Origin: a virus | DNA: 64,000 nucleotides | Strand: one strand, 5' to 3' | IMG/VR virus record: IMGVR_UViG_3300006921_000010 | Location: 1-64,000 of that record | Shown: positions 4,207 through 53,897 of the stretch, in pieces | Layout of the letters: every line of letters begins with the position of its first letter | Position numbering within the stretch: the stretch's first letter is position 1 | Made by a program: the position numbers and the translations under genes | Notes under the pieces: model-generated | The model's database searches: none | What the model was told of the DNA's origin: nothing | The model's input: only the letters and a program-made list of their open reading frames with translations

Positions 4207-6738
4207 CTATTCAGATATTAACATGTCTAATTTTTTAAACCTATCTTTGGATAAATCCCATACACCCTTATCTTCTGTATCATCTAGCATCTTTTGTTTA
4301 TATCCTGTCCATACTAGCCATGTATCTTGTTTTTTAACAGGAACTACTCGGAAATGTAATCTAGTTTCAAACTTATCTCCATTAATTCTATATTCATGAT
4401 AACCATCCTTTTGAACACCTAACTCTATTTTACCTCTATCAAGCAGTTTACCACCATTAACCTTAGTTGCTATTTGTGCAGGGTATTTACCTGCTTTACC
4501 AAATAGATTGAATATATCTTCTGTATCGTCTAAATTAATATTCCAAGCCATTTGTTTATTATTAACATCTATAATTAAATCTATGTTACCATCTTCTGTT
4601 TTAACTATTTTGAATATACCTTCCTTTTCATCTGGTTCTTCCTTAGATATATGGTCGTCATTAAAAGTATATTTTCCACTATTTGCTAAAAACTCAAACT
4701 CGGTTTGGTCGTTCATCCAATTTTTTAATTTTCTTGGTGATAGTTTTGACTTAGTGCTTTTATCATCAGACCATAAATCATTAGCCAACGAAGGATTTTC
4801 TTTTACAATAAACTCTAATATTTCTTTTACATCCTTTCCTTGTTGATTAGGGTCTTTTATTTTGAGCCATTCCTTTATTGTTCCTCTTGCTTCAGAAGTT
4901 TTAGTTTTAGTTATCTGAGTTAATTGTTCTTTCCAAGAATCAATATCAACCAAAGCATTCTTTTCCATTAATGAATCTCCTTCAAATCCATATATTGTAA
5001 ACCCGTCATAGTCCCCTTTTAGAATAATATCTGCTGTTCCATGAATACCATCAGTTATTGTATATTTCAATAAAGCATCTTGAATATCATAGGCTAATGA
5101 TTTTCTACTTTCTGTTGATAATAATTCTAACGTGATTAGTTTTTCTGGTGATTCTACTTCTGGTATTTCTATAACCTTAGCAGAAAACAAACTATATCCT
5201 GTGCCTTTTCTTTTTACTTCATCAACTTTAACTCTTACAATAGAACCAATATCCACATTTTCTTTAGTGTTTAATGCTTTACCAACAGGAAGGTATGTCT
5301 TTCCTTCGATTTCTGTGCCATTATGTTCTCTTGATTCTTCTCCAGAAAGTGGCCCCACTCCAACTGTATAAGAATATAAATTAGATTTAGTTTTCTTTTT
5401 ATCTAACACTATTACATCTAAATCTACAAACTTCTTCCATTTAACCCACTTAGGATTTTTCTTACTACCTATGTAATAAGTAGATTCAATATCTTTAATT
5501 ACAACTCCTTCTGAAGTAGGAGAGTCCATAATATCTTTAGAATACTTTTTTACTTCTTGTAATGAATCTGCTATTCTAGTGTTTTTCTTATTAGGAAAAT
5601 ATAATTCATCTGATGATTGTTGAGAGTATTGATAAAACAAAATGTTTATTCTTTCTCTTAATGGGTCATCACATATATTCTTATCTTCATGGTGCATAAT
5701 ATCAAACACTCTAGCCTTTAATACTGCATCTTTATATTTGCCTTTGAATAAATGAGCAATAGTATCTGCTCTATGTAATGGTTCTTTATTGTCGTATAGT
5801 ATAAGTTCAGCATCTAAAATACAATCACCAAACTGTTTGGCTTTCATTCTATCTACTACTTTATCACATTTATCTGTAATGTCTTTTTCATTGTAAGTAT
5901 ATATTTTAATTTGTTCATTCATTTTATGTATTTGTATTCTAATGCCGTCATACTTTTCTTGCACTACAAACTCTCCACTAAACCCTTTCAACTCTTTCAT
6001 ATCATTTATTTCAAATATACGATACATTGGTTTGTTTGGTATTATAAAATTAATTTCTGCTTTTTCTTCATCACTTTTCTTTAAATCTAATTGAATCAAT
6101 TTAGTCCAACTACTCTCATCATTTTCGACAAGATATACTTCTTCTAGTATTTTTAAAGCACCTTTAAACTTAGGCTTAACTCTATCAGTATCAACATCAT
6201 CACCATAATGTTCTATAATATATAGTGGAATATCATCAATTGCTAAATCAAGTCCTGTTGAACCTTCTGTAACTATATCAGGTAAATGACCTTTAGCCGC
6301 CCATGATTTTTCTCCGATAGCATGAGCATGTGAACGTAATGCATAATGAATAAATGCGGCATATAACTCAGGCCTTTTTATTATATTAGGAATCACCTTG
6401 TTTCCCATTTGAGTAGTAAAAGGGTCATTTACTTCTGTGGAGTTAAATCTTAGATTTTTAATCTGTTTAAATAATTCCTTTGCTTGATGAGATTCTGCGT
6501 CTTTTACTTCTTTAGCAAATACAACATCTTCTTCTAAGTATCTTTTTAATTCCCTAGAAAAATCATTTAACCCATCAAAGTCTTCTCTTATCTTATCAAT
6601 AGATTTACTCCATGCTGTCCCAAAGGATTTAGTATCTTCTTTAGCAGACAAATAATTGTATCTAGTATCTTCAAAAAAGTCTAGCACTCGCTTTGTAAGT
6701 GCATCCTTTTTATCTTTAAAGACCCCAGAAATAGGCAA
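4207..6738 (-). CDS. Large ATP-dependent DNA ligase in the virion operon
   Basis: The start is TTG 6738, with GAGGGAT placed correctly upstream. The 843-residue protein has an N-terminal extension (1-230), then an adenylation core: motif I EKYDGIRIQIH (Lys nucleophile near 264), ILDAELILYD, SEGVVIKDIES and WVKWKKF. An OB-like segment and about 320 further residues follow, ending in a beta-rich part (FETRLHFRVVPVK) with faint likeness to a LigD phosphoesterase module. It would seal nicks in DNA. Its place among head genes, separate from the replication ligase at 51489, suggests repair or end-processing of packaged DNA; that role is inference. Confidence 0.88.
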   Translation of the reverse strand: MPISGVFKDKKDALTKRVLDFFEDTRYNYLSAKEDTKSFGTAWSKSIDKIREDFDGLNDFSRELKRYLEEDVVFAKEVKDAESHQAKELFKQIKNLRFNSTEVNDPFTTQMGNKVIPNIIKRPELYAAFIHYALRSHAHAIGEKSWAAKGHLPDIVTEGSTGLDLAIDDIPLYIIEHYGDDVDTDRVKPKFKGALKILEEVYLVENDESSWTKLIQLDLKKSDEEKAEINFIIPNKPMYRIFEINDMKELKGFSGEFVVQEKYDGIRIQIHKMNEQIKIYTYNEKDITDKCDKVVDRMKAKQFGDCILDAELILYDNKEPLHRADTIAHLFKGKYKDAVLKARVFDIMHHEDKNICDDPLRERINILFYQYSQQSSDELYFPNKKNTRIADSLQEVKKYSKDIMDSPTSEGVVIKDIESTYYIGSKKNPKWVKWKKFVDLDVIVLDKKKTKSNLYSYTVGVGPLSGEESREHNGTEIEGKTYLPVGKALNTKENVDIGSIVRVKVDEVKRKGTGYSLFSAKVIEIPEVESPEKLITLELLSTESRKSLAYDIQDALLKYTITDGIHGTADIILKGDYDGFTIYGFEGDSLMEKNALVDIDSWKEQLTQITKTKTSEARGTIKEWLKIKDPNQQGKDVKEILEFIVKENPSLANDLWSDDKSTKSKLSPRKLKNWMNDQTEFEFLANSGKYTFNDDHISKEEPDEKEGIFKIVKTEDGNIDLIIDVNNKQMAWNINLDDTEDIFNLFGKAGKYPAQIATKVNGGKLLDRGKIELGVQKDGYHEYRINGDKFETRLHFRVVPVKKQDTWLVWTGYKQKMLDDTEDKGVWDLSKDRFKKLDMLISE

Positions 6739-31671: not shown

Positions 31672-31992
31672 GCATATGGTGGGAGAAACGTAAAGCGTTA
31701 ACCACTGATGATGGTCTTACTCTCCCTCGGAATAACGTATAGTTGCGTTAAGCAATAGTAGAGAGGAGGGGAGACCAGAAGAAGGAGGTTAAAGCAGTGT
31801 GAATGAATCACACCTTAAGGGTCGGGTTTAATCACATAAAATATCAGTAGTTGGGTGTGATATCTACCAAGCATTCTCCGTGCGTAGTTTCAATAGACGT
31901 TTCACTGATGCTTAATGCATCACCTTTCACCACTGCACACGAATGCTGGAGATACACTCCCATCTATCTGCATCTTTTATGCAACCATATGG
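31672..31992. repeat. Array unit A: two hairpins
   Basis: Hairpin 1 (31695-31795) has outer arms GCGTTAACC and GGTTAAAGC, an inner GGTCT/AGACC pair and the apex TTGCGTTAAGCAA (31743-31755). Hairpin 2 (31853-31961) has GCATTC/GAATGC arms and the apex TGATGCTTAATGCATCA (31906-31922). A small GTGTGA/TCACAC hairpin lies between. The two apices are in opposite orientation. Confidence 0.75.
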
Positions 31993-32164
31993 GTGTAGCG
32001 TAGCGTTAAGCAGCCTTAAGGATATGAAACGCTTCGCTGTTACATCATCCTGCTATTTCTAGTTAAAAGCATTGAAACGCTTCACTTTTACTGAATGTTT
32101 CATCACAACACTTTTACCACTACGTTACTAAAAATATTGAAGGATGTAATTTAATACCATATGA
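31985..32164. repeat. Array unit B
   Basis: Bounded by CCATATGG and CCATATGA. TACATC (32041) can pair with GATGTA (32143). GAAACGCTTC occurs twice as a direct repeat. No clear apex palindrome, so it may be decayed. Confidence 0.5.
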
Positions 32165-32304
32165 TTGTGCATTAAGCACACTGTTGTAAGGGAGGTCGGT
32201 AATGAAGCAACGTGAAACGGCCTGAGTGGACGTTGACCGAACAAAAGGTGAGTCCCAATCTATTAGATTGAACTCGCTACGCTCAAACAAATACAATCAT
32301 ATGG
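32157..32304. repeat. Array unit C with perfect 12-bp terminal inverted repeats
   Basis: CCATATGATTGT (32157-32168) is the exact inverse of ACAATCATATGG (32293-32304); both boundary octamers carry the same substitution. Inside are GTGCATTAAGCAC (32167-32179), a hairpin TCGGT..CAACGT / ACGTTG..ACCGA (32196-32240) and CAATC-TATTA-GATTG (32256-32270). Confidence 0.75.
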
Positions 32305-32418
32305 TATCATAAACGTAGTTTAGATTATCCCCAATGCGGTCACAATTCTTAGCGACACACCAACCACTCCCGTTGTTTATTGCTAAACGCATATCTACTA
32401 AGAATGCGAACCATATGG
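32297..32418. repeat. Array unit D: short hairpin unit
   Basis: ATTCTTAG (32345-32352) pairs with CTAAGAAT (32398-32405). No CATTAAG core is present. Confidence 0.6.
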
Positions 32419-32765
32419 TAGTGTTAAGTTATATCTGAGTTTACTCTGTTTAGGCAATGGAGGAACGAGGTGAACTGGTAAGTATTATCACGCAAACATA
32501 CATAAAACGAATAGTGCATTAAGCACAGTTGTATGTGGCGGCTTAAGTAATACTTACCGTGCAACCATGTTCCGCAATTTGCCTAAACGGAGTAAAGTCA
32601 GGGGAACTATTATCAATACCACAAATGTGGTTATTATTGACTCTATATAGGAAGAAGACGATATCATCATGCTTAATGCATGGTTCTAGTGAGTGCGAGG
32701 CGCACTCCAAGAACATCTGATATTCAACCGTCTTCTCCTATATCTCCCCGAATATAACCATATGG
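32411..32765. repeat. Array unit E: two long hairpins
   Basis: It begins CCATATGGTAGTGTTAAG. Hairpin 1 (32440-32596) pairs TTTACTC/GAGTAAA, GTTTAGGCAA/TTGCCTAAAC, GGAAC/GTTCC, GGTAAGTATTA/TAATACTTACC and ACATACA/TGTATGT, ending in the apex GTGCATTAAGCAC (32514-32526). Hairpin 2 (32645-32743) pairs ATATAGG/CCTATAT, AGAAGACG/CGTCTTCT and ATATC/GATAT, and encloses the apex ATGCTTAATGCAT (32669-32681) plus GAGTGCG-AGG-CGCACTC. Five collinear paired blocks cannot reasonably be chance. Confidence 0.85.
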
Positions 32766-33074
32766 TAGTGTTAAAGTGTAGGTTACTTTACCTAAGTCTT
32801 CGGAAACTTTCAAGGCTAGGAGAATATTTAACAGCATACATACGCGCTGAACCTAAACTGGTTCAGGTAAGTAATGTATTGGCATTAAGCCAATGTTTAT
32901 TTGGACTAGCCTTACAGTTGGAAGAGACATTAGAGTTACAGTATACTAAACAATAACATCTACCCCATGTCGTCTCCTCCCCAGGTGTCTCCCCTTCTGG
33001 TTGTTAGCATAGTATCCATAGAACGGCTTAATGCCTTATAGTTCTATTACCTAGATACTATTACAACCATATGG
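32758..33074. repeat. Array unit F: two hairpins
   Basis: Begins CCATATGGTAGTGTTAAAG. Hairpin 1 (32812-32913): AAGGCTAG/CTAGCCTT enclosing CTGAACC/GGTTCAG and the 17-base apex ATTGGCATTAAGCCAAT (32878-32894). Hairpin 2 (32999-33068): GGTTGT/ACAACC, AGTATC/GATACT, TAGAAC/GTTCTA and apex GGCTTAATGCC (33025-33035). Confidence 0.82.
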
Positions 33075-33570
33075 TGTTATACTTTGTGGTATAACACCTT
33101 AAATACTAATCAATATCTATTATAATGTCGAGGAAACGTAACTCGACATGAGTGTGCCAGAATAAGTCCGTTATCTAGGGCTAATGGAATGCCATGTTCT
33201 GTGGTGGAACAACGAGGCCGATAATAATAAGTCGGTCAGTGAAAGGAAGGTAACTCTTCTATGGTAAGTTTTCTGGGGTGAATGCTACATGCGAATATAG
33301 ATACCCATTCAGAATTGGTGGACGGTAGAAATATCAACCCACTCACTCCCCTGTTTTTCTAGTTTCAAGGATTGAGCCAAACGATAGTTTAATGGACTCA
33401 TAAAATAAAAAACTAGACCACATAAACGAGTGGGAAATAGAAGTGGAAATCCCGTAAGTTATTCCAGTGCATCCAACCGAAAGGCTAGCCATTAGTGCGT
33501 TAGTAGGTTGCAGGTGTTATAAACAACGCTCGACCTTGTGGGTTTATTAACAAAGTATACACCCATATGG
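33067..33570 (+). ncRNA. Array unit G: promoter-bearing unit without ORF, candidate structured RNA
   Basis: Left end: CCATATGG merges into a perfect hairpin GGTGTTATAC (33073-33082), loop TTTGTG, GTATAACACC (33089-33098). Then comes the array promoter TTAAATACTAA (33099-33109) and ATTATAATGTCG ending at 33130. The predicted RNA begins GTCGAG, which can pair locally with CTCGAC (33142-33147) or with CTCGAC near 33528. A further hairpin (33338-33434) pairs CCCACTC/GAGTGGG and CTAGTTT/AAACTAG. The right end, read inversely, repeats the CCATATGG...ATACTTTGT terminus. No ORF of useful length exists, unlike the three sister units. Confidence 0.6.
33099..33130 (+). promoter_or_regulatory. Array promoter 1 (unit G)
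   Basis: TTAAATACTAATC, then ATTATAATGTCG; TATA-to-start distance is about 25 bases, as in archaea. Matches four other copies (minus strand near 34981 and 36590; plus strand at 37028 and 38001). Confidence 0.7.
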
Positions 33571-33720
33571 GTGTAGCCCTTAAGGAGACTTTTTCGTTAT
33601 TATTTCATGGCTTCACGCTTTTTCACATTAATTGTAATCAAGTGCTAAATGCACTATACCATGTTAAAAAACCTTCACCATTTCAAAAATCACAAAAAAC
33701 CATTTCATTGTTCCATATGG
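33563..33720. repeat. Array unit H
   Basis: Its left boundary is the perfect 18-base palindrome TACACCCATATGGGTGTA (33558-33575). The core AGTGCTAAATGCACT (33641-33655) is a palindrome of the apex type with a changed centre. The rest is A/T-rich with weak pairing. Confidence 0.6.
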
Positions 33721-33824
33721 TAGGAGTCTAGTCTCAGGCATTATGCCTAGAACCGTGGTGGGAAGACTTAGGCCGACCCCAAACGTATTGGGGACTATCT
33801 ATACTACGTTATGACACCATATGG
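33713..33824. repeat. Array unit X: short unit
   Basis: Contains AGGCATTATGCCT (33736-33748), a variant apex, and CCCCAA/TTGGGG hairpin (33777-33793). Confidence 0.6.
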
Positions 33825-34127
33825 TAGTGTAAAGAAAGGAACAGGATAAATATATTTATGCGGGTATGGTGTGTGCGATTACGGTGCTTTTCTAGTATTA
33901 TGAATAATACAGTATAGGGCATTTAGCCCTTGTATTCATAATGCGTATAGGGAAAGCACGTATACGCTACACAAATGTCCCGCATAAATATTATTTATTC
34001 TAGTGATTCTTATCATCTACCCGTCTTGAGGGCGGGAGACTTCAGGTTATCTGGTGTTAGACTTGGCTTAACGCCACTTCTTAGTTTCTATGAACTAATA
34101 AGAATAGTTCTTCCTAACACCATATGG
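33817..34127. repeat. Array unit I: two hairpins, sister of unit K
   Basis: Begins CCATATGGTAGTGTAAAG. Hairpin 1 (33852-33991) pairs ATATTTATGCGGG/CCCGCATAAATAT (13 bp, perfect), GTGCTTTTC/GAAAGCAC, TTATGAAT/ATTCATAA, with apex AGGGCATTTAGCCCT (33916-33930). Hairpin 2 (34053-34121) pairs GGTGTTAG/CTAACACC, with apex TGGCTTAACGCCA (34064-34076). The linker ATTCTTATCATCTACCCGTC (34006-34025) is identical in unit K. Confidence 0.85.
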
Positions 34128-34290
34128 ATGGGGGGCATTAGTCATACAAAGGACATTAAGTCTGCTACGAAGTAGATTTGACAATGCTCTCTCTCCACAT
34201 AAAGTTTAAGACCTGGGGCAAACTATGTATTTGTATCGTTAGATAAACTACTGCCGTTGGCCGTGTTTATCACGAACTGCAACCATATGG
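34120..34290. repeat. Array unit J
   Basis: Has GACATTAAGTC (34152-34162), a core with GAC/GTC arms, and weak flanking complementarity. A short reading frame crossing units I and J is judged spurious. Confidence 0.55.
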
Positions 34291-34334
34291 TGGGAGTGGT
34301 AATACTTTGTTAAAAGAACGTGAACCTGAAAAAA

Positions 34335-34390
34335 GGGACAAAAAGAAGGGTGAAGGTGGCCTATCACCTAATCACTCTTCTTCTTGTCCC
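34335..34390 (-). terminator. Hairpin at the 3' end of the 179-residue array gene
   Basis: GGGACAA (34335-34341) pairs with TTGTCCC (34384-34390), with GGTG/CACC inside; the right arm overlaps the gene's last codons. Could terminate or stabilise the minus-strand transcript. Confidence 0.5.
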
Positions 34391-34911
34391 CCATTATCTA
34401 CTACATTAGGATAACCTTCTAGTGTGAAAGTCCCATCCCAGAAATAACGCTTTGATACGTCATTCTTAGCATACGCATTGTAGCATTGACTCAAAAATAA
34501 GGACATAACCTTAGTTTGATTGTCAGCGTATTCTGTGCGGCCATCATCCATATCTCTATAGAGGACACCGCCGGATTTACCGTGTGTTTTAGCAAAACCG
34601 CGTTCTTGATTGTATGCTACGTCATATTGATACTGCCAATAATCTGCTTTGTATGTATCAAAATCCGATTTAATAGCGGTTGTCATCAATGACCTTCTAC
34701 CGCCGCCAATAGGGGAATTGCTCAAATCAGCAAATATCCCACTAATGCTAGACCAATGCTTCTTACGAAGGTCGCTTTGCATGTCACCTATCGCAAATAG
34801 TCCATCAGCAATGACTCGTCTACCCTCATGTTGAGGGTTCGCATCGAACCATTCTGCAATCAATTCTTTCTTCGCATTCCATGTGTTATCTTCCATACTG
34901 TAATCTACCAT
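34372..34911 (-). CDS. Array cargo protein 1 (179 residues), paralogue of the 37105 gene
   Basis: It starts at ATG 34911 after GGAGGAATAAATT. The product, MVDYSMEDNTWNAKKEL..., shares with the protein at 37105 an N-terminal ME-[DE]-x-x-W-N, a central RR-S/T-L region, the motif HGKS-x-G at about residue 118, a later F/W-DGT, and the end QEEE. No known family; the conserved HGKS may be a nucleotide- or DNA-contact loop but is not a Walker motif. Its own promoter (near 34981) matches the array consensus. A role in array maintenance, replication or host takeover is open. Confidence 0.8.
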   Translation of the reverse strand: MVDYSMEDNTWNAKKELIAEWFDANPQHEGRRVIADGLFAIGDMQSDLRKKHWSSISGIFADLSNSPIGGGRRSLMTTAIKSDFDTYKADYWQYQYDVAYNQERGFAKTHGKSGGVLYRDMDDGRTEYADNQTKVMSLFLSQCYNAYAKNDVSKRYFWDGTFTLEGYPNVVDNGGQEEE

Positions 34912-34958
34912 AATTTATTCCTCCAAGTTATATAAATAACTAGGTGTTAGGCCACCTT

Positions 34959-34987
34959 CATTACAGTCATTTTAACTTACTATTTAA
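34959..34987 (-). promoter_or_regulatory. Array promoter 2 (179-residue gene)
   Basis: On the minus strand CCTTAAATAGTAAG followed about 20 bases later by GACTGTAATG. Same arrangement as the other array promoters, next to the ACTTTGT terminal hairpin. Confidence 0.65.
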
Positions 34988-35011
34988 GGTGTTCATCCAC
35001 AAAGTATCACA

Positions 35012-35166
35012 CCATATGGAACAACGAAGTGGTAATTGGTAATTGCTTGTAGCGAAGAGTAATTATATATTAGTAAGGACATTAAGTCCTAGCAATACGT
35101 TGAATATATAATTGTGATTGAGCGAAAGAATTAGCCATTCGTGCCTTAAGGGTTACACCCATATGG
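35012..35166. repeat. Array unit L: one long hairpin
   Basis: AATTATATATT (35061-35071) pairs perfectly with AATATATAATT (35103-35113) around the apex AGGACATTAAGTCCT (35076-35090). Outer bases (CGAA...TTCG) extend the pairing toward both ends. Confidence 0.8.
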
Positions 35167-35353
35167 TAGTGTAAAACGATAGACGTTATGGGTTGTAAGG
35201 AGACTTGTCATCGTCTAGTCGTAGAGTAACGATGAGAAGCATCCGTCAAGACATGTTGTCGGCTTAGTTGGTACAATATCCGATATCTTGGGATTGTAAA
35301 CTGTCCTCAAGATGTGGCTTAATGCCACTTACATACGTTTATCAACCATATGG
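35159..35353. repeat. Array unit M: two hairpins
   Basis: Begins CCATATGGTAGTGTAAAAC. CATCGT/ACGATG (35209-35234), ATCTTGGG/CCTCAAGAT (35284-35312) and the apex palindrome GTGGCTTAATGCCAC (35314-35328). Confidence 0.75.
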
Positions 35354-35545
35354 TTGGTCATAATTGAAATACAGTTTGATGTGAACATTTAGGTATCAAT
35401 AAGGTAGCGCAGTAATAGTGCTACATTACTTATACCGTGAACATTGTAAACTGTGTAATGTATAGACCATGCCCCATTTTTGAATGGGGTCAAGCCCTAA
35501 ACCACGTTATTTACGCTTAATGCGTATTTTCTCTTGTCCATATGG
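35346..35545. repeat. Array unit N, sister of unit T
   Basis: CAACCATATGGTTG starts it. ACAGTTT/AAACTGT (35371/35448), GGTAT/ATACC and GTAGC/GCTAC enclose AATAAGGTAGCGCA and TAATAGTGCTAC, almost identical to unit T. A CCCCATT/AATGGGG hairpin and the apex ACGCTTAATGCGT (35513-35525) follow. Confidence 0.78.
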
Positions 35546-35653
35546 TTGTTAATAGACTGGTCTATAACTTACCCCATTGTGGAAACCGCTAACGTTGTCC
35601 TTGCCTAGCAAGTGTTCTTAATGACACATTACAACAACGCTACTTCCATATGG
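35538..35653. repeat. Array unit O: short unit
   Basis: TAGAC/GTCTA, CTTGC-CTA-GCAAG, and GTGTTCTTAATGACAC inside an AACGTTGT/ACAACAACG pair (35591-35640). Confidence 0.65.
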
Positions 35654-35753
35654 GTGTGCATTAAGCACAGGGTAAAACATAAACCCCCAAATGAGGATTA
35701 TACATGGCGTTCCGAGAGGAAACCTCCTCCACTAACAATGTATAACCATATGG
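35646..35753. repeat. Array unit P: short unit
   Basis: GTGCATTAAGCAC lies immediately after the boundary octamer; TTATACAT/ATGTATAA (near 35698 and 35737) with GAGAGG-AAA-CCTCCTC inside form one hairpin. Confidence 0.68.
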
Positions 35754-35918
35754 TTGCATTAAGCAAGGAACGTAGTATAGAGGTCTAGGGCGGCTCTGAC
35801 CGATTAATACTACGAGACATTTCCCGATTGCCAAAAATGGGATTGACTTCCGCTAACCGCTTAACTAAACTACGCAAATGTTTCCATTTTCGTAGATTAT
35901 GTAAAATCAACCATATGG
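35746..35918. repeat. Array unit Q
   Basis: TTGCATTAAGCAA (35754-35766) adjoins the boundary; CGTAGTAT/ATACTACG with GGTC/GACC form a hairpin (35771-35814). CTACG/CGTAG make a second small hairpin. Confidence 0.68.
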
Positions 35919-36211
35919 TAGTGTAAAGATGGAACTGAAGAAAAATATATTTTTCTGAGAGTGCAAAGAGTGGGGTTTTGCAGATTCAGATGATATTAAT
36001 TTAGCATTTAGTGGCATTAAGCCACTGCGTAATATTATCGGTTAAAACTCTGTAAAGCCCCCTTTTGCACCTTGTAAAAATATATTTTGTCTTTGAGTGT
36101 ATTCTTATCATCTACCCGTCCTAACATCCGCCCCTCTGGTGCTAGACTTGGCCTAATGCCAACTGACTAGATTATAATCTACACAGTATCGTTTTATCTA
36201 ACACCATATGG
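35911..36211. repeat. Array unit K: two hairpins, sister of unit I
   Basis: Begins CCATATGGTAGTGTAAAG. Hairpin 1 (35942-36088) pairs AAAATATATTTTT/AAAAATATATTTT, GTGCAAAG/CTTTTGCAC, GATGATATTA/TAATATTATC, apex AGTGGCATTAAGCCACT (36010-36026). Hairpin 2 (36138-36206) pairs GGTGCTAGA/TCTAACACC, apex TTGGCCTAATGCCAA. The 20-base linker (36101-36120) equals that of unit I although the stems differ. Confidence 0.85.
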
Positions 36212-36239
36212 TTCTAAACTTTGTCTATAGAACCTGAAG

Positions 36240-36443
36240 TTAATCTTCAGATTCCCCCGTTATAGACATATATTCGTCTAAAGCCTGTCTTAATTCGGAC
36301 ATAACCATAGAAAGGTCATCACCAGATACCTTCAATTCCTCAATAGAGAGGACAATGTTCTGTCCTGATTTCATATGCTTTAATTTGATAGCATATTTAG
36401 GGGCATTTACTTGTTGTATAATAGTAGTAGTTTCGTTATTCAT
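36240..36443 (-). CDS. Array cargo protein 2 (67 residues)
   Basis: The start ATG 36443 (MNNETTTIIQQVN) follows TTTGGTGATTTTA; a TTG/ATG extension upstream is less likely. Residues 14-32 (PKYAIKLKHMKSGQNIVLS) look like a beta hairpin and the C-terminal 30 residues an acidic helix. Unrecognised. It has the array promoter and a structured leader. Confidence 0.65.
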   Translation of the reverse strand: MNNETTTIIQQVNAPKYAIKLKHMKSGQNIVLSIEELKVSGDDLSMVMSELRQALDEYMSITGESED

Positions 36444-36564
36444 TAAAATCACCAAAGGGTGAGACAGCCCTTAACCAAGTGGCTATACTTCCAATAAATA
36501 CGTTTAGATTGTCTCATGGCATCATCACGTTGTTGGATAGCGGTCAAGCATTGGTGGGCTGTCT

Positions 36565-36600
36565 ACATTATAATAGATATTAGTTAGTATTTAAGGTAGT
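36565..36600 (-). promoter_or_regulatory. Array promoter 3 (67-residue gene)
   Basis: On the minus strand CCTTAAATACTAAC, then CTATTATAATGTAGAC; nearly identical to the unit G promoter although the downstream cargo differs completely. Confidence 0.7.
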
Positions 36601-36619
36601 CCTTAACAAAGTTGTCCTA

Positions 36620-36799
36620 CCATATGGTTCATCGTAGATTGGACAGAACCAGATTTTAGGGCTTACACTTGGTATTGTAATCATTGCATCTGCGCTTCGT
36701 TGGCTGAATACGCCTGATAAAGAAATATCAGAAGAGTATATGTATTCATCCTTTGAAGACTTGATGGAATGAAACAATCCCTTCGCTACAACCATATGG
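36620..36799. repeat. Array unit S, without apex palindrome
   Basis: No CATTAAG core. Its plus strand contains a 44-codon frame (36638-36772) encoding a hydrophobic segment then an acidic tail, but without ATG or a ribosome site, so coding is not claimed. Confidence 0.5.
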
Positions 36800-37006
36800 A
36801 GGGTCATGAAGTGATAAAAGGTAATGTATGAACATAACAGTATGAATAAGGTAGCGCAATAATAGTGCTACCTTAGTAATACCGTGAAATACATTATTTG
36901 TTCATGATAGATTTCTCCACACAAATGAGGTATCCCCACTTACGTTTTGCAGAGGAGATGGCTTAATGCCATATATCTCTAATTTCTCAGCAAGCCTACC
37001 ATATGG
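36792..37006. repeat. Array unit T, sister of unit N
   Basis: AATAAGGTAGCGCA then TAATAGTGCTAC (36845-36871; GGTAGC 36850-36855, GCTACC 36867-36872), followed by ATGGCTTAATGCCAT (36958-36972) inside GAGAT/ATCTC. Confidence 0.77.
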
Positions 37007-37027
37007 TTCGACTTTGTCAAGAACCCC

Positions 37028-37058
37028 TTATATACTAACTATGTTAGATTATAATGTC
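37028..37058 (+). promoter_or_regulatory. Array promoter 4 (169-residue gene)
   Basis: TTATATACTAAC, then ATTATAATGTCG, about 25 bases apart, with the ACTTTGT hairpin just upstream (37011-37017). Confidence 0.72.
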
Positions 37059-37104
37059 GCTGACCTAACTAAAGGGAAGAAAGGATTATTGGAAGGTAAT
37101 TAAA

Positions 37105-37614
37105 ATGGAAGAAAGTAATTGGAATAATGTAAAGAATAAAGTAGCCTCATGCTTAGATGGGGATATTGATAGTGAAATACCTATTGATGTGAAAACATTA
37201 GTAAGCATGCTAATGGAGACAGGAGATAATAATGTCGCAAACCGAACCGCACTAGCGGCATCAGTAAAAGCGATGTTGAAAGATTTCCCATCAGGTCAAG
37301 TAGTCTGGAGAAGAGGTAATCAAGGACTATTGTCTATTGAGGCAAGTATGGTTGTTGAAACTGCTTGTGCAGAAATTAGAGAAGCGGCTCATCTGTTTTT
37401 CACCACTACTCAGACTTATTCACAACCCCTGTTACGAAAGCATGGTAAATCTAAAGGCGCACCTGTGTTTTTAGATGCCGATGACTACGCAAATACTCTA
37501 GTGGCTAAAGCCAAGCAAACTGCTAGAGAATTATTCAAATCCAAAGAATGGGATGGTACTACTGACGGCTTAGATGCATGTGCATCTTATACCGAAGTTC
37601 AGGAGGAGGAATAA
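37105..37614 (+). CDS. Array cargo protein 3 (169 residues), paralogue of the 34372 gene
   Basis: Starts MEESNWNNVKNKV at ATG 37105 after GGAAGGTAATTAAA. It shares W-N at the N-terminus, NRT-A-L, LRKHGKSKGAP (about 110-121), a WDGT segment and the QEEE end with the 179-residue protein on the other strand. Predicted mainly helical. No known family. Two paralogues in separately bounded units with the same promoter suggest they belong to the array's biology. Confidence 0.8.
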   Translation: MEESNWNNVKNKVASCLDGDIDSEIPIDVKTLVSMLMETGDNNVANRTALAASVKAMLKDFPSGQVVWRRGNQGLLSIEASMVVETACAEIREAAHLFFTTTQTYSQPLLRKHGKSKGAPVFLDADDYANTLVAKAKQTARELFKSKEWDGTTDGLDACASYTEVQEEE

Positions 37615-37722
37615 TCGCCTTCTGAACTTTAGTTTTGGTCGGCGACAACGGTAGGCAAGGATAGGTTGAAATATACCTATTCTTGTCTCCAAAACTTCTG
37701 GTTCTATGGACAAAGTTTAGAA

Positions 37723-37826
37723 CCATATGGTCACACTAAAGATGTGCCTCAATTTGTGGATACGCAGATATTCTTATTCTTTGTCGTTCATAACATATCA
37801 TCTCCTGAATATCTGCTACCATATGG
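37723..37826. repeat. Array unit U: one hairpin
   Basis: GCAGATATTC (37764-37773) pairs perfectly with GAATATCTGC (37807-37816); the loop contains CTTTGT. No apex palindrome. Confidence 0.7.
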
Positions 37827-37937
37827 TAGTCCATAATGAATGGAATGAAAAGGTTTAGGACTTACCCGAGGGGTTTTTTAGGGTATGCACAAGGACGATT
37901 CTCTTGTGCTTAATGCACACTCTCTGCCACCATATGG
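37819..37937. repeat. Array unit V (last clear unit)
   Basis: Contains TGTGCTTAATGCACA (37905-37919). ACCCGAGGGGTTTTTT (about 37864-37879) looks like a plus-strand hairpin followed by a T-tract. Confidence 0.62.
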
Positions 37938-38000: not shown

Positions 38001-38033
38001 GTATATATACTAACTCGATTTGATTGTAATGTC
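38001..38033 (+). promoter_or_regulatory. Array-type promoter 5, toward the right operon
   Basis: GTATATATACTAAC followed by GATTGTAATGTCG matches the other four promoters. It is the last promoter before the plus-strand operon 570 bases on. A GGCGG/CCGCC hairpin (38033-38077) and repeated AATGGCC follow the start point, so the leader, or a short RNA, is structured. Confidence 0.65.
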
Positions 38034-38601
38034 GGCGGCAATTAAAATCTAATGGCCTGTTAAACACGCATTCCGCCAATGGCCTATTTATACCTATTAC
38101 ATTTAATGGCTTAATTTATTATACAGTGAATAAGCATAGTTTAGGATTAATGAACCGAGAAGGCTATCTATGTATAATATATCTCTTATCTTATACACAT
38201 ATCAATATGGCATATCCTATATGATATGATAGTTTATCGAATACGTTTCTAATTTCTAATTTGGATTGGAAATGAGTTTGCTCAAAATGAGTGGGTTAGG
38301 GTATAGTAAGTATGTTAAAATTATATATTTATAATATTATAATATTTCTAACTAATATATATAACAACTACCTACCTACCTACCTACCTACCTACCCTGA
38401 TGGGGGGTTAGAAACGTTAGAAATTAGAAATGACAGTCAAAACAAGTTAAATTGTATCAGTTATCATAGAGTATCTGGTGCAAAATGTGTTTCCAATGGG
38501 ATTAGAATAAGGTTAGAAATGCTTCTTGCCCTACTGCTGTATTATTCTGTCCAAGAAGACATTGCGCGCTTGCTTTTAACACAAAAAGGAGAATAAAAGA
38601 A
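38034..38601. other. AT-rich leader region before the plus-strand operon
   Basis: About 560 bases without a convincing gene. 38160-38365 is very AT-rich (possible unwinding element). Seven CTAC copies occur at 38368-38395. A perfect 14-bp inverted repeat, TTTCTAATTTCTAA (38246-38259) and TTAGAAATTAGAAA (38417-38430), has additional half-sites at 38409 and 38513. Confidence 0.6.
38368..38395. repeat. CTAC microsatellite, seven copies
   Basis: Perfect tetranucleotide repeat between the two arms of the TTTCTAATTTCTAA inverted repeat. It lies in an open frame that I reject as a gene. Confidence 0.9.
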
Positions 38602-45112: not shown

Positions 45113-45406
45113 ATGATATACCCTTTTCTACTAGAGAAGGTAATGACTGTTGAGCATATTCTACCCTCATCAAGAGACCGTGTGGGTAAATATGCTTACA
45201 GGAATAAAGACCAGATGGTTGATTCTTTTATACAAGCATCAACTGATGTGATAGATGGTAATTGTGGTGCTGAATATTATCTTAACTTTGTTAGAAGAAT
45301 ATTTATAGCATCATCATTATCACCAAGTAATAGCAAGTTTTACTTGGAGATAGCAGAATTGAAACAACTTGCAGAATATATAGAGGCGAATAAAAATGAA
45401 GTTTAG
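45113..45406 (+). CDS. 97-residue helical hypothetical protein
   Basis: I use ATG 45113 (MIYPFLLEKVMTVEH); upstream GTG codons inside the reductase gene are less likely. No strong ribosome site is visible. Helical, with many Ser and Asn near FIASSLSPSNSKF. Function unknown. Confidence 0.55.
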   Translation: MIYPFLLEKVMTVEHILPSSRDRVGKYAYRNKDQMVDSFIQASTDVIDGNCGAEYYLNFVRRIFIASSLSPSNSKFYLEIAELKQLAEYIEANKNEV

Positions 45407-45875
45407 TGATTGTAAATGTGGATGTAATAAGTTCAATTTAGATATGAAAGGAAAAATGATATGTCAAGCGTGTGGTGCTGAGTTTAAACCATTTGAAGCA
45501 GAAATGCATAAGGTGATTAAAGACGATGGCTTCCATTATTTTTGGGCTGTGTTTACACCCCATTTTATGGAACGATTAACTGAGAGAATCCCAGGTGCTG
45601 AAGTAGAAGATGTGTTAGAGATTGCATCGGCAATAGAGAAGAAAGCAAAGAGAAAGAAGTTTCAATGCACCAGATGGAAAGACAGACATATCATATGGAA
45701 ATATAGATATAACGAGAAGCGTAAAAGACTTGAGTTAGAGTTTATCAGCGTAATACCTGTAAATAAGTTTACCACTAGATTAGACAATGGATACTTTGTT
45801 AAAGATATACAATATGTCGAAATAGAAACTAAGGAGGAATCTAAATGCAAAACAATAAAAATGAACAAGAAATAA
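45396..45875 (+). CDS. 159-residue protein: zinc ribbon plus RelE/DUF4258-like domain
   Basis: Residues 1-30 (CKCGCNKFNLD...CQACG) are a zinc ribbon. Residues about 50-150 (FTPHFMERLTERIP...KWRH-like CTRWKDRHIIWKYRYN...LEFISVIP) have the helix-then-sheet order of RelE/DUF4258 proteins. It could act on RNA. Start ATG 45396 overlaps the previous gene by 11 bases. Confidence 0.65.
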   Translation: MKFSDCKCGCNKFNLDMKGKMICQACGAEFKPFEAEMHKVIKDDGFHYFWAVFTPHFMERLTERIPGAEVEDVLEIASAIEKKAKRKKFQCTRWKDRHIIWKYRYNEKRKRLELEFISVIPVNKFTTRLDNGYFVKDIQYVEIETKEESKCKTIKMNKK

Positions 45876-48525: not shown

Positions 48526-49146
48526 ATGAAAACAAAAACAAAAAGAAAGGTGCTAGTGATTGGAGTAGGCGGGATAGGTAGTTTCCTAACCCCTCTACTT
48601 CATAGGACAGGGTTGTATGATATTTACATGCATGACCCTGATACTGTTGATTTGAAAAACATCAGTTATCAAAACTTTAATCATGGTGATATTGGATTGA
48701 ATAAAGTAACTGCAATGCGTATCAATACTACTTGTATGAATCACTTGGCTGATGTTGGGTTGAGTCAAGGTAAAGCATATCCGATATTAACTAAGAAACA
48801 ATTAGAAGGTTTTGATTTAATAATATGTTGTGCTGATAATCTAGCAGTAAGAAAACTCTTGTATGCTCAAGGGTTCAAAGATGATTGTAAAACACATTGG
48901 TTAGACCTTAGAGCGCAAGGTAGAAATGGTGCTTTGATTAGTTATCTTACAGAGGGCAATTTTAGTGAAACATTACTAAATGGGCCAGAAGGTTCTTTCT
49001 CTTGTCAAGGAGAGAACTTTAATGAATCCTTAAATACAGAGGATTTACACTTCACTCACGTAGCAATTGCGGGTTATGGCGCACAATGGATGCAACGATG
49101 GTTCGCAGGTGATGAAGTAAAGGACAAATATATAATAAACGTATGA
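48526..49146 (+). CDS. E1/ThiF-like adenylating enzyme
   Basis: A 206-residue single-domain protein with the Rossmann start VLVIGVGGIGSFL (about residues 7-19), DPDTVDLKNISYQNF and DIGLNKVTAMR (matching D-x-D-x-V ... N ... Q-x-F ... D-x-G-x-x-K), and IICCADNLAVRKLL. A Cys in GSFSCQGENF could be the acceptor; the zinc CxxC pairs of larger E1s are absent. It would adenylate the GG end of a ubiquitin-like protein, with the 42479 product as candidate substrate. Confidence 0.8.
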   Translation: MKTKTKRKVLVIGVGGIGSFLTPLLHRTGLYDIYMHDPDTVDLKNISYQNFNHGDIGLNKVTAMRINTTCMNHLADVGLSQGKAYPILTKKQLEGFDLIICCADNLAVRKLLYAQGFKDDCKTHWLDLRAQGRNGALISYLTEGNFSETLLNGPEGSFSCQGENFNESLNTEDLHFTHVAIAGYGAQWMQRWFAGDEVKDKYIINV

Positions 49147-49155
49147 GTTGATAAT

Positions 49156-49635
49156 ATGGTAAAATGGACAAAAGATGAAGAAGAACAAATACTACAAGGT
49201 TGGCCTGTTAAAGAGCATAGAGATGCGATAGCAGAAGAATTAGGTAGAAGTAAAGCGGCTTGCGCTACACGTTATCGTAAGTTGATTAAAGAAACACCTG
49301 CAAAAGATTTGACAGGGGATGCTTATGTTGAGAAGGTTCAACAAATGAAAGAAGAAGTAGTAGAAGAAATCAAAGAAACTATTACCCCAACAAAAGCGGC
49401 ACAAGAAATTAGTGAAAAGATAACTGAAATCATAGAACAAAATGAAGCGGAGTTAGCGGCAACTAATGGTAAACTAAAAGAAGTAAAAGAAGAATTGAAA
49501 GAAGAACAAGTGAATAATGTTGCAGAAACAGTAGAAATACTTTCTACAAAGAAAGACTACAAGTATACAGTTAGGATTGTAGCACTATTAACAATACTTG
49601 GATGTTCATACTTAGGATGGTATTTGTATGCTTAA
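49156..49635 (+). CDS. Tail-anchored protein with SANT/Myb-like domain
   Basis: A 159-residue protein. Residues 3-44 (WTKDEEEQILQGWP...IAEELGRSKAACATRYRKL) look like a SANT/Myb helix-turn-helix. A charged coiled coil follows, and residues about 138-158 (VRIVALLTILGCSYLGWYLYA) are a single C-terminal membrane segment. It could tether DNA to the host membrane. It lies between the E1-like and JAMM genes. Confidence 0.75.
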   Translation: MVKWTKDEEEQILQGWPVKEHRDAIAEELGRSKAACATRYRKLIKETPAKDLTGDAYVEKVQQMKEEVVEEIKETITPTKAAQEISEKITEIIEQNEAELAATNGKLKEVKEELKEEQVNNVAETVEILSTKKDYKYTVRIVALLTILGCSYLGWYLYA

Positions 49636-50176
49636 TGGTAAAGAAATAGATTACACAGGAAGAAGGACTAATCTTGTAGATTATAGAGGAGATGACTTTC
49701 AGGAATTAATTCCCGATTGGAAAAGAATAATAGAATCAAAATACGAAGATGTATGCCTAATACACAGGTCTCAACTTAAGAAAACAATAGATGATTTCCA
49801 TAAAGCAATTTGGGAAATGTCTACAAATGCTTTCGATAAACCTAGAGAGATTCAGATAGTAATTGATGGTAACGATAAGTGCCATATTAGTGCTGGAAAT
49901 CCAGGCTATGTTACATTTGGTGGACAAGAAGAAGGAATCGCAGGTATGAAGTTTCCATTAAAAGAATGGATTCATACTCATCCTTTCGGACAAGCGTTTT
50001 GGAGTGGCACAGATATGAATACTATTAATATGTACCATAGATTTTTAAACTCCGCTACTGTTATAGGTAATGGTGAGAAGCAAACATCGTACTTCAGGTA
50101 TGACGCTGATGGTAATGATTATCATGAATGGACACAGTTTGCATGGGGACAGATAGGTGGAGGTGAAGAAGAATGA
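49628..50176 (+). CDS. JAMM/JAB metalloprotease-like protein
   Basis: A 182-residue protein with a full metal-site motif HTHPFGQAFWSGTD (His-x-His, then Ser-x-x-Asp) near residues 118-131, preceded by strands and a helix compatible with a JAB fold. Such proteases cut after the GG of ubiquitin-like proteins or remove them from targets. With the ubiquitin-like and E1-like genes nearby it completes a possible modifier cycle; no E2 is seen. Confidence 0.8.
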   Translation: MLNGKEIDYTGRRTNLVDYRGDDFQELIPDWKRIIESKYEDVCLIHRSQLKKTIDDFHKAIWEMSTNAFDKPREIQIVIDGNDKCHISAGNPGYVTFGGQEEGIAGMKFPLKEWIHTHPFGQAFWSGTDMNTINMYHRFLNSATVIGNGEKQTSYFRYDADGNDYHEWTQFAWGQIGGGEEE

Positions 50177-51291: not shown

Positions 51292-51520
51292 AGAAAAACT
51301 ACCACCAAAGACTCATGTTCGTGAAGGTGTTTACGAATTGATGAGTGAAATAATGGAAGTAGAATTAGATTCGCTGTTAGAAGCAATACTAATTGATTAT
51401 AGTAATGGTGGCGATAAAGCCATAAGAAAGTCCCACGTTTATACAGCATGGGCGAAGCAAATAATAAAATTAAATAGAGGTAATAAAAATGACATTGAGC
51501 ATATTTTCAAGAATGAATGA
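51254..51520 (+). CDS. 88-residue protein, possible histone fold
   Basis: I use ATG 51254 (MIISQRKLKEKIKEKL). Residues about 20-75 (HVREGVYELMSEIMEVELDSLLEAILIDYSNGGDKAIRKSHVYTA) follow the histone-fold order: short helix, long helix ending in NGGDK-x-I, then short helix with HV-x-x-A. Overlaps the ligase gene. Pattern-level evidence only. Confidence 0.6.
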   Translation: MIISQRKLKEKIKEKLPPKTHVREGVYELMSEIMEVELDSLLEAILIDYSNGGDKAIRKSHVYTAWAKQIIKLNRGNKNDIEHIFKNE

Positions 51521-53030
51521 GAGATTAGAAGGAATCACACCAAAGGAACAAGTAGAAGAGTTAAGTAATTCTTTAAGTGCTTTTATTGGTGATGATAAGG
51601 CGTTAGTAATACAGATACTTGCACTAGAGTATGATGTGAATAACATAGGTGAAACTAGGGCAAAGGCATGGGTTGCTAAAGCACTAGGTATATTTGATGA
51701 GGAATTAGATTCATACATCCATACATGGGGCGACATAGGAGAAGCAGTCTATGAATTAGATACAGGTAATGAGAACGATTCTAAACTATCAATTAAACAA
51801 CTACATCGTTTGTTAAGTTTAGATTGTTCAAGAATCAATAGTCATTCATATGATTTATTTTCCGAAGCGTTGTCTTTTATGAGTGCTAGAGAGAAGAAGT
51901 GGTTTCTACGTTATTGGCTACACAAGCCAAGAAACGGAGTGCATACTACAATTCCAAAGAAGGCAATGGCTAGGTATTATGGTAAAGGTGTAAGAGAGAT
52001 TAATAAATACGCGCAATACAATTCATTATATGAGATATGTTTAGATTTAGAAGCAGGTAATGTTCCTGAATGTAAACTAAAACACGGGCAGTTTGTAACT
52101 CCTATGCTAGCAAAGGCTAGAAAAGGTGCTGAAAAACCAGATAAGTATATTATTGATATTAAGTATGATGGTAATAGGTATATTATACATAAGAAGGATA
52201 AACACATAATTATCTTTAATCGTAAAGGCAATATAGCAACAGACCAATACCCAGATATTGTTGAGATAGTCAAAGAGTTTAATGGAGATATGATATTAGA
52301 TAGTGAAATATATCCTATCAATAGAGATGGTTCACCTGCTGAACACAAGATGTTAGGTAAGAGAGTCCACAAGAAAGACAAAGCGGAGGCAGTGCGAGAA
52401 TGTCCTGTTAATCTTGCTGTGTTTGATGTATTATCTTTCAATGGAATCTCATTGTTGGTAGAAACACAAGAAGTAAGAATGAAGAAACTATTAGAAGTAG
52501 TGCCTAAAGAATATCAAACACATATCTTTGAGGATGACACTATCAAATCAGCATATAACAAAGCAATTGATTGGGGCTATGAAGGTATAATGATTAAAGA
52601 TGCATCTATGATTTATGAGGCAGGTAAAAGAAGTAAAGGTTGGTTGAAATATAAACCACCACGCATTGAATTAGATGTAGTAATAACTTCTGGCACATAT
52701 GGTAAAGGAACAAGAACAGGGTTGTTTGGTTCATTTGGTATATCAGTTAAAGAAGGTAGTAATTATGTCAATGTAGGTAAAGTAGGTACAGGGTTTTCTG
52801 ATGAAGAATTAGTATGGCTAACTAATGAACTTAGAAAGAGCATTGATAGAATGGATAATGGTGTGTATTATTTCCTACCTAGAATTGTATTACAAGTAAC
52901 AAGTGATTTAGTTACGAATGATGCAGATGGTAATATAGGATTAAGATTTCCTAGAAGCATGAGAGTAAGACATGATAAGTTTGCTAGTGATGTGGACACC
53001 ATACAAACAGTTAGGGAGATGATGTTATGA
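51489..53030 (+). CDS. lig: ATP-dependent DNA ligase (replication operon)
   Basis: A 513-residue ligase. Residues 1-200 form the N-terminal DNA-binding domain; motif I is DIKYDGNRYII (Lys near 221), followed by FNRKGN, DMILDSEIYP, WGYEGIMIKDAS and GWLKYKPPR. It seals nicks during viral replication. It is the second ligase of the window and is closer to normal archaeal/viral length than the 843-residue one at 4207. Confidence 0.92.
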   Translation: MTLSIFSRMNERLEGITPKEQVEELSNSLSAFIGDDKALVIQILALEYDVNNIGETRAKAWVAKALGIFDEELDSYIHTWGDIGEAVYELDTGNENDSKLSIKQLHRLLSLDCSRINSHSYDLFSEALSFMSAREKKWFLRYWLHKPRNGVHTTIPKKAMARYYGKGVREINKYAQYNSLYEICLDLEAGNVPECKLKHGQFVTPMLAKARKGAEKPDKYIIDIKYDGNRYIIHKKDKHIIIFNRKGNIATDQYPDIVEIVKEFNGDMILDSEIYPINRDGSPAEHKMLGKRVHKKDKAEAVRECPVNLAVFDVLSFNGISLLVETQEVRMKKLLEVVPKEYQTHIFEDDTIKSAYNKAIDWGYEGIMIKDASMIYEAGKRSKGWLKYKPPRIELDVVITSGTYGKGTRTGLFGSFGISVKEGSNYVNVGKVGTGFSDEELVWLTNELRKSIDRMDNGVYYFLPRIVLQVTSDLVTNDADGNIGLRFPRSMRVRHDKFASDVDTIQTVREMML

Positions 53031-53506
53031 TAGATATCGGGTCTATGACATTAATCGAAGCAATACCTTATACTTGTGTAAAAATCGAAGGTAGCGTGGC
53101 GTTTTTACAAAGAGTCGGTGAAGACAAGCGGGGTAGATTGAAAAAAATGGATGTTAAATTGGTTCCCTATGTTGATGAAAATAATCAACTAGTAATTCCA
53201 AAACCGCCACCTATGAACAGGAAGAAAATGACACGTTTTCATTATATGAAAGCAATTAAAGATGAGATAGATTTACCCGTTTCACATGACTTGGCTTATT
53301 TTATTGCTGAACAATTAGACACTTTAATTAGAGACTTAGCCGTGAAAGCACAACAGAATGCACAGTATAGAAATGATGATAGGATAACTCCCAATCATTG
53401 GTATAACCTACAATTGGGTATGCATCAAGGTGATGGTTATTGGCCTTCACATAAAGGAATAGCAAAAGAATATAAAGAATATTTGAGGGGAAATGATGTC
53501 ATTTAA
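53027..53506 (+). CDS. 159-residue protein, possible histone fold
   Basis: The N-terminal 70 residues are beta-rich. Residues about 75-135 (FHYMKAIKDEIDLPVSHDLAYFIAEQLDTLIRDL...NDDRITPNHW) look like a histone fold with the usual V-S ... D start and R-I-T-P-x-H before the last helix. Four-base overlap with the ligase gene. Family call is tentative. Confidence 0.62.
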   Translation: MIDIGSMTLIEAIPYTCVKIEGSVAFLQRVGEDKRGRLKKMDVKLVPYVDENNQLVIPKPPPMNRKKMTRFHYMKAIKDEIDLPVSHDLAYFIAEQLDTLIRDLAVKAQQNAQYRNDDRITPNHWYNLQLGMHQGDGYWPSHKGIAKEYKEYLRGNDVI

Positions 53507-53897
53507 TACTGATGAATTGCGAGGTATTTTAGTATCAATCGCTAAACCAGAAATACATATTGGTCGCTCAGATAGTATTCAAATAGGATATAGAGTTAGA
53601 GTTAGAGTAAACATAAGAGGCTCTGATAATTTTCTAATATGGATAGAGCGAGCATTATTAATGAAAGGTATTGAATCTAAATATAAAAAGATAGAACATA
53701 AAAGTAGACCTAGACCCATACTAACAATTAGCGGTTTAGTAAATCTTTGGAAACTATCGGAATTAATTCCTAAAAATATGCCCGATGCTAAGAATGCGTG
53801 GGGTGATTTTAGAGAAGTAATTACTCTTATGGACGAAGGTAAACATCATACCTTAGAAGGTTTAGAAAGAATCTTACAAATAAAAGGAGAGTTATGA
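53493..53897 (+). CDS. Degenerate LAGLIDADG-like domain protein
   Basis: A 134-residue protein resembling archaeal LAGLIDADG proteins outside the catalytic helix: IQIGYRVRVRVNI, ALLMKGIESKYKK, PILTISGLVNLWKLSELIP, and HHTLEGLERILQI. The catalytic DADG acid is not evident in LRGILVSIAKPE, so it may be a DNA-binding relic. The start may be either of two adjacent ATGs. Confidence 0.6.
   Translation: MMSFNTDELRGILVSIAKPEIHIGRSDSIQIGYRVRVRVNIRGSDNFLIWIERALLMKGIESKYKKIEHKSRPRPILTISGLVNLWKLSELIPKNMPDAKNAWGDFREVITLMDEGKHHTLEGLERILQIKGEL

Follow-up and report, generated by a model that had tools for sequence, protein, structure and literature searches.

The stretch of DNA analyzed here, referred to as the window, is the initial 64 kb of a 71.8-kb IMG/VR virus record (IMGVR_UViG_3300006921_000010). 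Between its two divergent gene arms lies what is probably a viral cassette array, in which independent modules are joined by palindromes and rearranged by an activity that would recognise these joints. When related viruses were compared, homologous units were found reordered and inverted, with the breaks at the joints.

The joint in the window is the octamer CCATATGG. A total of 23 exact copies was counted, all inside positions 31985-37937, and exactly three one-mismatch joints were observed in the array, all at its left edge (GCATATGG at 31672, CCATATGA at 32157 and TCATATGG at 32297). In 100 dinucleotide shuffles the octamer occurred 0.88 times per window on average, with a maximum of four. 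An earlier note made from the letters of the window had given the same counts between divergent operons and had called the octamer rare by chance and absent from the rest of the window. Both statements held, and the remaining 7.8 kb of the record contains a single extra copy at 71735. The note had also proposed about 25 units, and 25 were found, of about 96-729 bp each. A clustered regularly interspaced short palindromic repeat (CRISPR) array, which the note had dismissed, was ruled out: in a set of 424 distinct units the joints are palindromes of 8-10 bp and the units range from 72 to 2095 bp, in contrast to repeats of 20-50 bp with uniform spacers.

Relatives were sought in IMG/VR with a 14-base joint pattern, and more were added by scans with the cassette proteins. 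The search of related viruses for the same joints at the same locus, suggested in the earlier note, yielded more than 60 array-bearing virus contigs besides the window (obvious repeats of one contig set aside), and the array site in these relatives is the same kind of divergent-arm junction. The cassette-end pattern CCATATGGTN{3,10}ACTTTGT was a further source of such contigs and returned at least 109 new loci in IMG/VR, at least 51 of them having three or more clustered joints.

When the arrays were cut at the joints and the units compared between relatives, orthologous units were found to be ~70-98 % identical and to keep exact joint boundaries, many being alignable from joint to joint. Units were shuffled, inverted, duplicated, gained and lost, and the flanking genes were collinear in the pairs compared. 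Between contigs L106 and L114, whose flanks are about 86-93 % identical, seven of 15 adjacencies are broken and three units are inverted. Between the window and L119 (flanks 92-95 % identical), 15 of 18 adjacencies are broken. A blastn comparison that used no unit boundaries placed most in-array match ends 0-6 bp from a joint, again with collinear flanks. The window itself contains duplicated units (06/15 and 11/18), some units occur in just a single relative, and stretches of 62-77 bp in unit 07 share 96-97 % identity with units of a distant lineage (L106, L133), whose protein A (see below) is only about 57 % identical. These three observations indicate duplication, gain or loss, and exchange between lineages. 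Identical arrays were recovered from separate metagenome assemblies in L117/L118 and L109/L111, which argues against misassembly. In the course of their evolution the arrays have been shuffled at the joints, where units were also inverted, duplicated, gained, lost and exchanged between lineages. The idea of a recombination-built cassette array, offered in the earlier note as one candidate and called loosely integron-like, is thus strongly supported.

The 424 units fall into two kinds, gene cassettes and short non-coding fold-backs. Of the 148 units with an open reading frame (ORF) of at least 110 amino acids (aa), 116 have the motif CTTTGY no farther than about 30 bp from the 5' end and 99 have it at this distance from the 3' end; its rate in interior 30-mers is 1.3 %. 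The motif occupies the loop of an end hairpin whose stem begins in the GG of the joint. Joint-anchored stems of at least 4 bp were observed at 134 of 217 cassette ends, compared with 19 of 217 when the arms were shuffled. A TATA-like motif is present at the gene 5' end in 60/148 gene cassettes and at the 3' end in 16/148. Gene cassettes occur in both orientations, and their cargo consists of the paralogous helical proteins A and B, a small protein C (with D in some viruses), or an RNA resembling manA. The earlier note had missed the promoters, the hairpins with CTTTGY at the cassette ends, the manA RNA and the conserved proteins that the cassettes encode.

Proteins A and B form one paralogous family that is found, with 1-4 copies per array, in nearly every array of the first set examined, its members usually each in their own cassette; C represents a second, smaller family. 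Protein A is encoded at or near the replication-arm end of the array and points outwards in the window, L106, L107, L108, L113, L114, L117-L120, L133, L141 and L142, whereas the B, C/D and R cassettes vary in order and direction among arrays. A tRNA gene with a long variable arm was seen near this end in several relatives (L107:3296-3379, L108:13722-13805, L117:15890-15973, L141:4738-4821 and L142:13339-13422), and ARAGORN reported no tRNA in the window. The predicted promoters of the A, C and R cassettes resemble a sequence at 38002-38034, outside the array and before the replication arm. This resemblance suggests shared early expression, and the cargo is probably expressed early together with the replication arm.

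No Pfam family was found for A, B or C, and PHROGs contained none of use for A or B. The predicted structures of A (predicted local distance difference test, pLDDT, 79.5) and C (73.6) had no significant PDB match, and the model of A gave marginal matches to two unnamed viral proteins. A scan of GTDB with protein A returned a lone match, which was judged to be due to chance (a bacterial housekeeping contig of 49 % GC, partly masked). In a distant relative, a cassette carries a DUF932 protein (L115:15011-16003, minus strand), so arrays can hold other genes.

The R cassette matched the manA RNA model (RF01745) over its full length with 54.3 bits (gathering score 55.2; E-value 4e-12). With gathering thresholds, Rfam reported no match in the window; manA appeared in E-value mode. 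The match begins at the predicted transcription start. Homologues of R in four other virus lineages scored 39-49 bits (E-values 1e-6 to 1e-9), and compensatory changes were observed in 36 of 49 predicted pairs in an alignment of nine sequences. R is therefore called manA-like, with a match over the full model that stays just below the gathering score and with covariation. The manA RNA was originally described as an element of the 5' untranslated region (UTR) in cyanophages and in marine bacteria and metagenomes (PMC2864571). In contrast to this published 5'-UTR form, R is a separate cassette with its own putative archaeal promoter, and its unit contains no ORF of 90 aa or more.

Twenty units of up to 496 bp were folded, and their z-scores ranged from -1.2 to about -12 to -13, most being below -3. 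The claim of the earlier note that most units are self-complementary was borne out to this extent, but units 04, 05 and 12 folded weakly on both strands. Where both bases of a stem pair had changed, Watson-Crick pairing was kept in 101/153 cases, compared with 80/302 in slid controls. Single stem changes gave G-T and A-C in about equal numbers (86 vs 76 oriented, 31 vs 37 ambiguous; related pairs overlap and the counts are not independent), which indicates that pairing is conserved without a clear preferred strand. Judged by these counts, RNA would explain the pairing less well than hairpins in the DNA or the correction of imperfect palindromes by template switching. Hairpin apex motifs differ from lineage to lineage (CATTAAG in the window and L119, CTAAGCG/ACGCTAAG in L106/L114 and CCTAAGC in the L108 group), and the ends of non-coding units hold little information beyond position +5. 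The possibility that all non-coding units are RNA genes was set aside because no promoters were seen and G-T was not favored over A-C.

The mechanism that we propose for the cassette array would start from independent modules separated by an identical palindromic joint with the core ACCATATGGT. As the joint is its own reverse complement, a cut or crossover at any two joints could delete, duplicate, move or invert the modules in between without damaging them. The symmetry makes all unit ends equivalent, so a single cut-and-join or crossover activity would yield all of the observed outcomes. A dedicated activity may recognise the joint, probably together with the flanking hairpins; it would belong to none of the recognisable viral recombinases of the tyrosine, serine or Y1 type, and the array may be located at or near the replication origin. 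Such a recombination activity may still be present today.

Several observations weigh against this reading. Neither tyrosine recombinases (PF00589; 14 of 14 control genomes positive) nor serine recombinases (PF00239) or Y1 transposases (PF01797), both with positive controls, were found in 17 array viruses, some of whose records are fragments. Known site-specific recombinases use longer sites than the conserved 8-10 bp of the joint, and a minority of blastn match ends fall within diverged units. Furthermore, the arrays of near-identical viruses (L108/L113, L109/L111 and L117/L118) are collinear, which makes the rearrangement evolutionary rather than a rapid switching; as regards a population-level inversion rate, the data are assembled contigs.

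Candidates for the joint enzyme were noted. LAGLIDADG folds form homodimers that bind palindromes, and a LAGLIDADG-like protein of 134 aa (53493-53897, plus strand) is conserved in 13 of 17 array viruses. Its motif is degenerate (LxGILLS), seemingly without the usual catalytic acid, and its homologues match PF14528 weakly. This protein is a candidate for recognition of the joint, and the array-borne A/B and C proteins are further candidates; the agent could also be a host enzyme or hairpin-driven repair. In the 96,765-bp record of L199 (G019), the LAGLIDADG-like gene is found at both record ends (154-543 and 96344-96733), a sign that this genome may be complete and terminally redundant.

The rearrangements might have arisen with no dedicated enzyme, through replication or repair errors such as template switching, or annealing of single strands at the 8-bp palindromes that lie between strong hairpins close to an origin; the palindromes would then persist as hot spots. 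The strong fold-back units, the location at a skew switch, the lack of a recombinase among the 17 array viruses and the compensatory changes that favor neither strand, the outcome expected of quasi-palindrome correction, are all in line with such errors. However, viruses that have diverged widely, and hundreds of units unrelated to each other, all retain exactly this octamer, and the specific CTTTGY end hairpins of the gene cassettes suggest recognition by a protein. We consider this explanation unlikely. It is still less probable that each unit is a transposon or a miniature inverted-repeat transposable element (MITE) whose insertion into CCATATGG duplicated the octamer as its 8-bp target, repeated insertion having built the array. 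Identical 8-bp repeats do flank the units, the short units are MITE-like, nested insertion would leave shared joints, and exchange between lineages is also compatible with mobility. On the other hand, non-coding units share no terminal repeat beyond about 2-5 weak positions, array units were not seen elsewhere in the record, no Y1 transposase was found (the search for DDE transposase families did not extend to all genomes), and in-place inversions need recombination between joints.

The earlier note had also put forward an origin or genome-maintenance locus, in which palindromes and hairpins would bind an initiator and the cargo would be incidental. The sign of the GC skew flips across the array at the divergent-arm switch, and it goes from negative to positive in 15 of 16 relative loci with both flanks measured. 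The position at the skew switch fits an origin, at or near which the array may lie, and the lineage-specific repeated apex motifs point the same way. The skew also follows the direction of transcription and is hence no proof of an origin, the number and kind of units vary widely, and origin function leaves the conserved promoters and cargo genes unexplained. As the whole explanation an origin is rather unlikely, yet it is compatible with the cassette array and both can be true together. As for the set of trans-acting structured RNAs that the note had considered, with each unit an RNA gene, the R cassette with its covariation and own putative promoter is one such case, and the low folding energies agree. 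Inspection by eye revealed no conserved promoter in the remaining non-coding units, their orientation flips between relatives, and G-T and A-C are equal in stems, unlike in an RNA of fixed strand; for the array as a whole there is little chance that this reading is correct.

When compared with known systems, the cassette array resembles integrons (IntI, attI, attC) in its linear exchangeable modules, joints of one identical class, fold-back single-strand structure and gain, loss and reordering, and exchange of modules at joints of this type was indeed observed. It is not an integron itself: no tyrosine recombinase was detected in the 17 array viruses, and the joint is a perfect 8-bp palindrome rather than an attC site, although no search aimed at attC sites was made. 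Integron cassettes are mostly promoterless and in one orientation, whereas the cassettes here have TATA-like 5' motifs and both orientations, and the array belongs to a virus, where it occupies a divergent junction. Shufflons and DNA-inversion systems (Rci, Hin/Gin) are alike in having segments flanked by short repeats that invert and reorder. They differ in that no Rci-type or serine recombinase was found here, the joint is symmetric and near-identical viruses exhibit no switching; shufflon modules are alternative gene ends, whereas the array modules are whole transcription units or hairpins. IS200/IS605 elements also have hairpins near both ends, but they insert next to a fixed tetranucleotide, while array units share joints and no Y1 HUH transposase was found. 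MITE arrays likewise contain short non-coding fold-backs with identical flanking repeats. Their members have terminal inverted repeats in common, whereas the array units share almost nothing beyond the joint, shuffle and invert in place and are unseen outside the array.

The features of the window are listed in Table 1. The minus-strand arm on one side of the array encodes HK97-type virion genes (SU10-type capsid, S78 protease, portal and terminase), and the plus-strand arm on the other side encodes RNR, a zinc-ribbon TFB-like protein, ligase, the RFC small subunit and a split PolB. Past the window end, an ERCC4 nuclease and a PD-(D/E)XK nuclease follow in the same record.

Table 1 Features of the cassette array and its border in the window (promoters of the A and C cassettes and the promoter-like sequence are predictions from sequence)
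Feature	Position	Strand	Remarks
Whole cassette array	31672..37937	.	26 joints (23 exact CCATATGG and 3 one-base variants), 25 units; position conserved in relatives
Array left edge	31672..32418	.	Degenerate joints and non-coding units; arrangement differs in L119
Unit 01	32411..32765	.	Non-coding fold-back; most strongly folded in the window, z -12.0
R cassette, stand-alone manA-like RNA	33067..33570	+	CTTTGT hairpins at both ends; homologues in several lineages
Predicted promoter of R cassette	33098..33130	+	TTAAATA box about 26 bp before TAATGTCG; resembles A and C cassette promoters
manA RNA (RF01745) match	33126..33349	+	Full-length model match
Unit 06, duplicated as unit 15 (35911-36211)	33817..34127	.	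Non-coding fold-back, z -10.3; duplicates and homologues
Unit 07	34120..34290	.	Non-coding; shared with distant lineage (L106, L133)
B cassette	34283..35019	-	CTTTGT hairpin ends
Protein B, 179 aa	34372..34911	-	Paralogous to A; without a match in Pfam or PHROGs
Unit 11, duplicated as unit 18 (36792-37006)	35346..35545	.	Non-coding; both inverted relative to L119
C cassette	36204..36627	-	CTTTGT hairpin ends
Protein C, 67 aa	36240..36443	-	Beta-beta-helix model; start in ORF list 4 residues earlier (36455)
Predicted promoter of C cassette	36563..36597	-	TTAAATACTAACTAATATCTATTATAATG
A cassette	36999..37730	+	CTTTGT hairpin ends; place and direction conserved
Predicted promoter of A cassette	37027..37059	+	CTTATATACTAAC...TATAATGTCG
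Protein A, 169 aa	37105..37614	+	All-helical model; signature family of the arrays; no convincing PDB relative
Promoter-like sequence immediately beyond the array, preceding the replication arm	38002..38034	+	Resembles cassette promoters

Magroviruses were described with divergent replication and virion modules, a split PolB, RFC, ligase, ERCC4 nuclease and no integrase (PMC10768690, PMC12999244), and the divergent modules and these replication genes were all found here. Since the layout and gene content fit the published description (PMC10768690), an archaeal, probably marine, host is indicated, and the virus is probably a magrovirus-like archaeal tailed virus. In a phage collection, the best matches of PolB were haloarchaeal viruses (~25 %), with no magrovirus among the matches listed. 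The likeness to Magrovirales (Aoguangviridae, Apasviridae) covers the divergent modules, split PolB, RFC, ligase, ERCC4 nuclease and lack of an integrase; the comparison was made by published description, and the texts consulted mention no such array. No description was found in literature on the octamer, archaeal-virus shufflons and magrovirus non-coding regions, the magrovirus literature being covered in part.

Other features were observed in the record. A (CTAC)n tetranucleotide repeat is located immediately right of the array (about 38370-38397). A gene among the virion genes (4207-6738, minus strand), adjoining capsid and protease, encodes a protein of 843 aa that has an ATP-dependent DNA ligase domain, on top of the ligase at 51489-53030. 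A ThiF-like gene near a weak JAB-like gene (48526-49146 and 49628-50176, plus strand) is possibly a ubiquitin-like conjugation or deconjugation pair of the virus. T4 endoribonuclease RegB gave a weak match at 45396-45875 (plus strand), and a repetitive 525-aa tail-fibre-like protein with glycine-rich repeats lies at the end of the record (69718-71295; L001:9718-11295).

We file the array as a new kind of viral cassette array, which works like an integron or a shufflon but fails the tested defining features of both. There is about an even chance that it represents a new class of site-specific module shuffling that is widespread in archaeal tailed viruses, with a direction-free 8-10 bp palindrome joint, recognition hairpins and an enzyme outside the known recombinase families, and that maintains at the replication origin a reshufflable set of early genes along with fold-back modules and a stand-alone manA RNA. 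The manA RNA was described in 2010 and, to our knowledge, is still without a known function; as a gene of its own beside conserved partner proteins, it is in a genetic setting that makes this function testable. Bacterial integrons are the main known example of cassette arrays that reorder gene modules. If viruses of marine archaea have a comparable system, apparently common and without recognisable recombinases, it would represent a new route by which genomes assemble and exchange modules, and it might lead to a new direction-free recombination enzyme.

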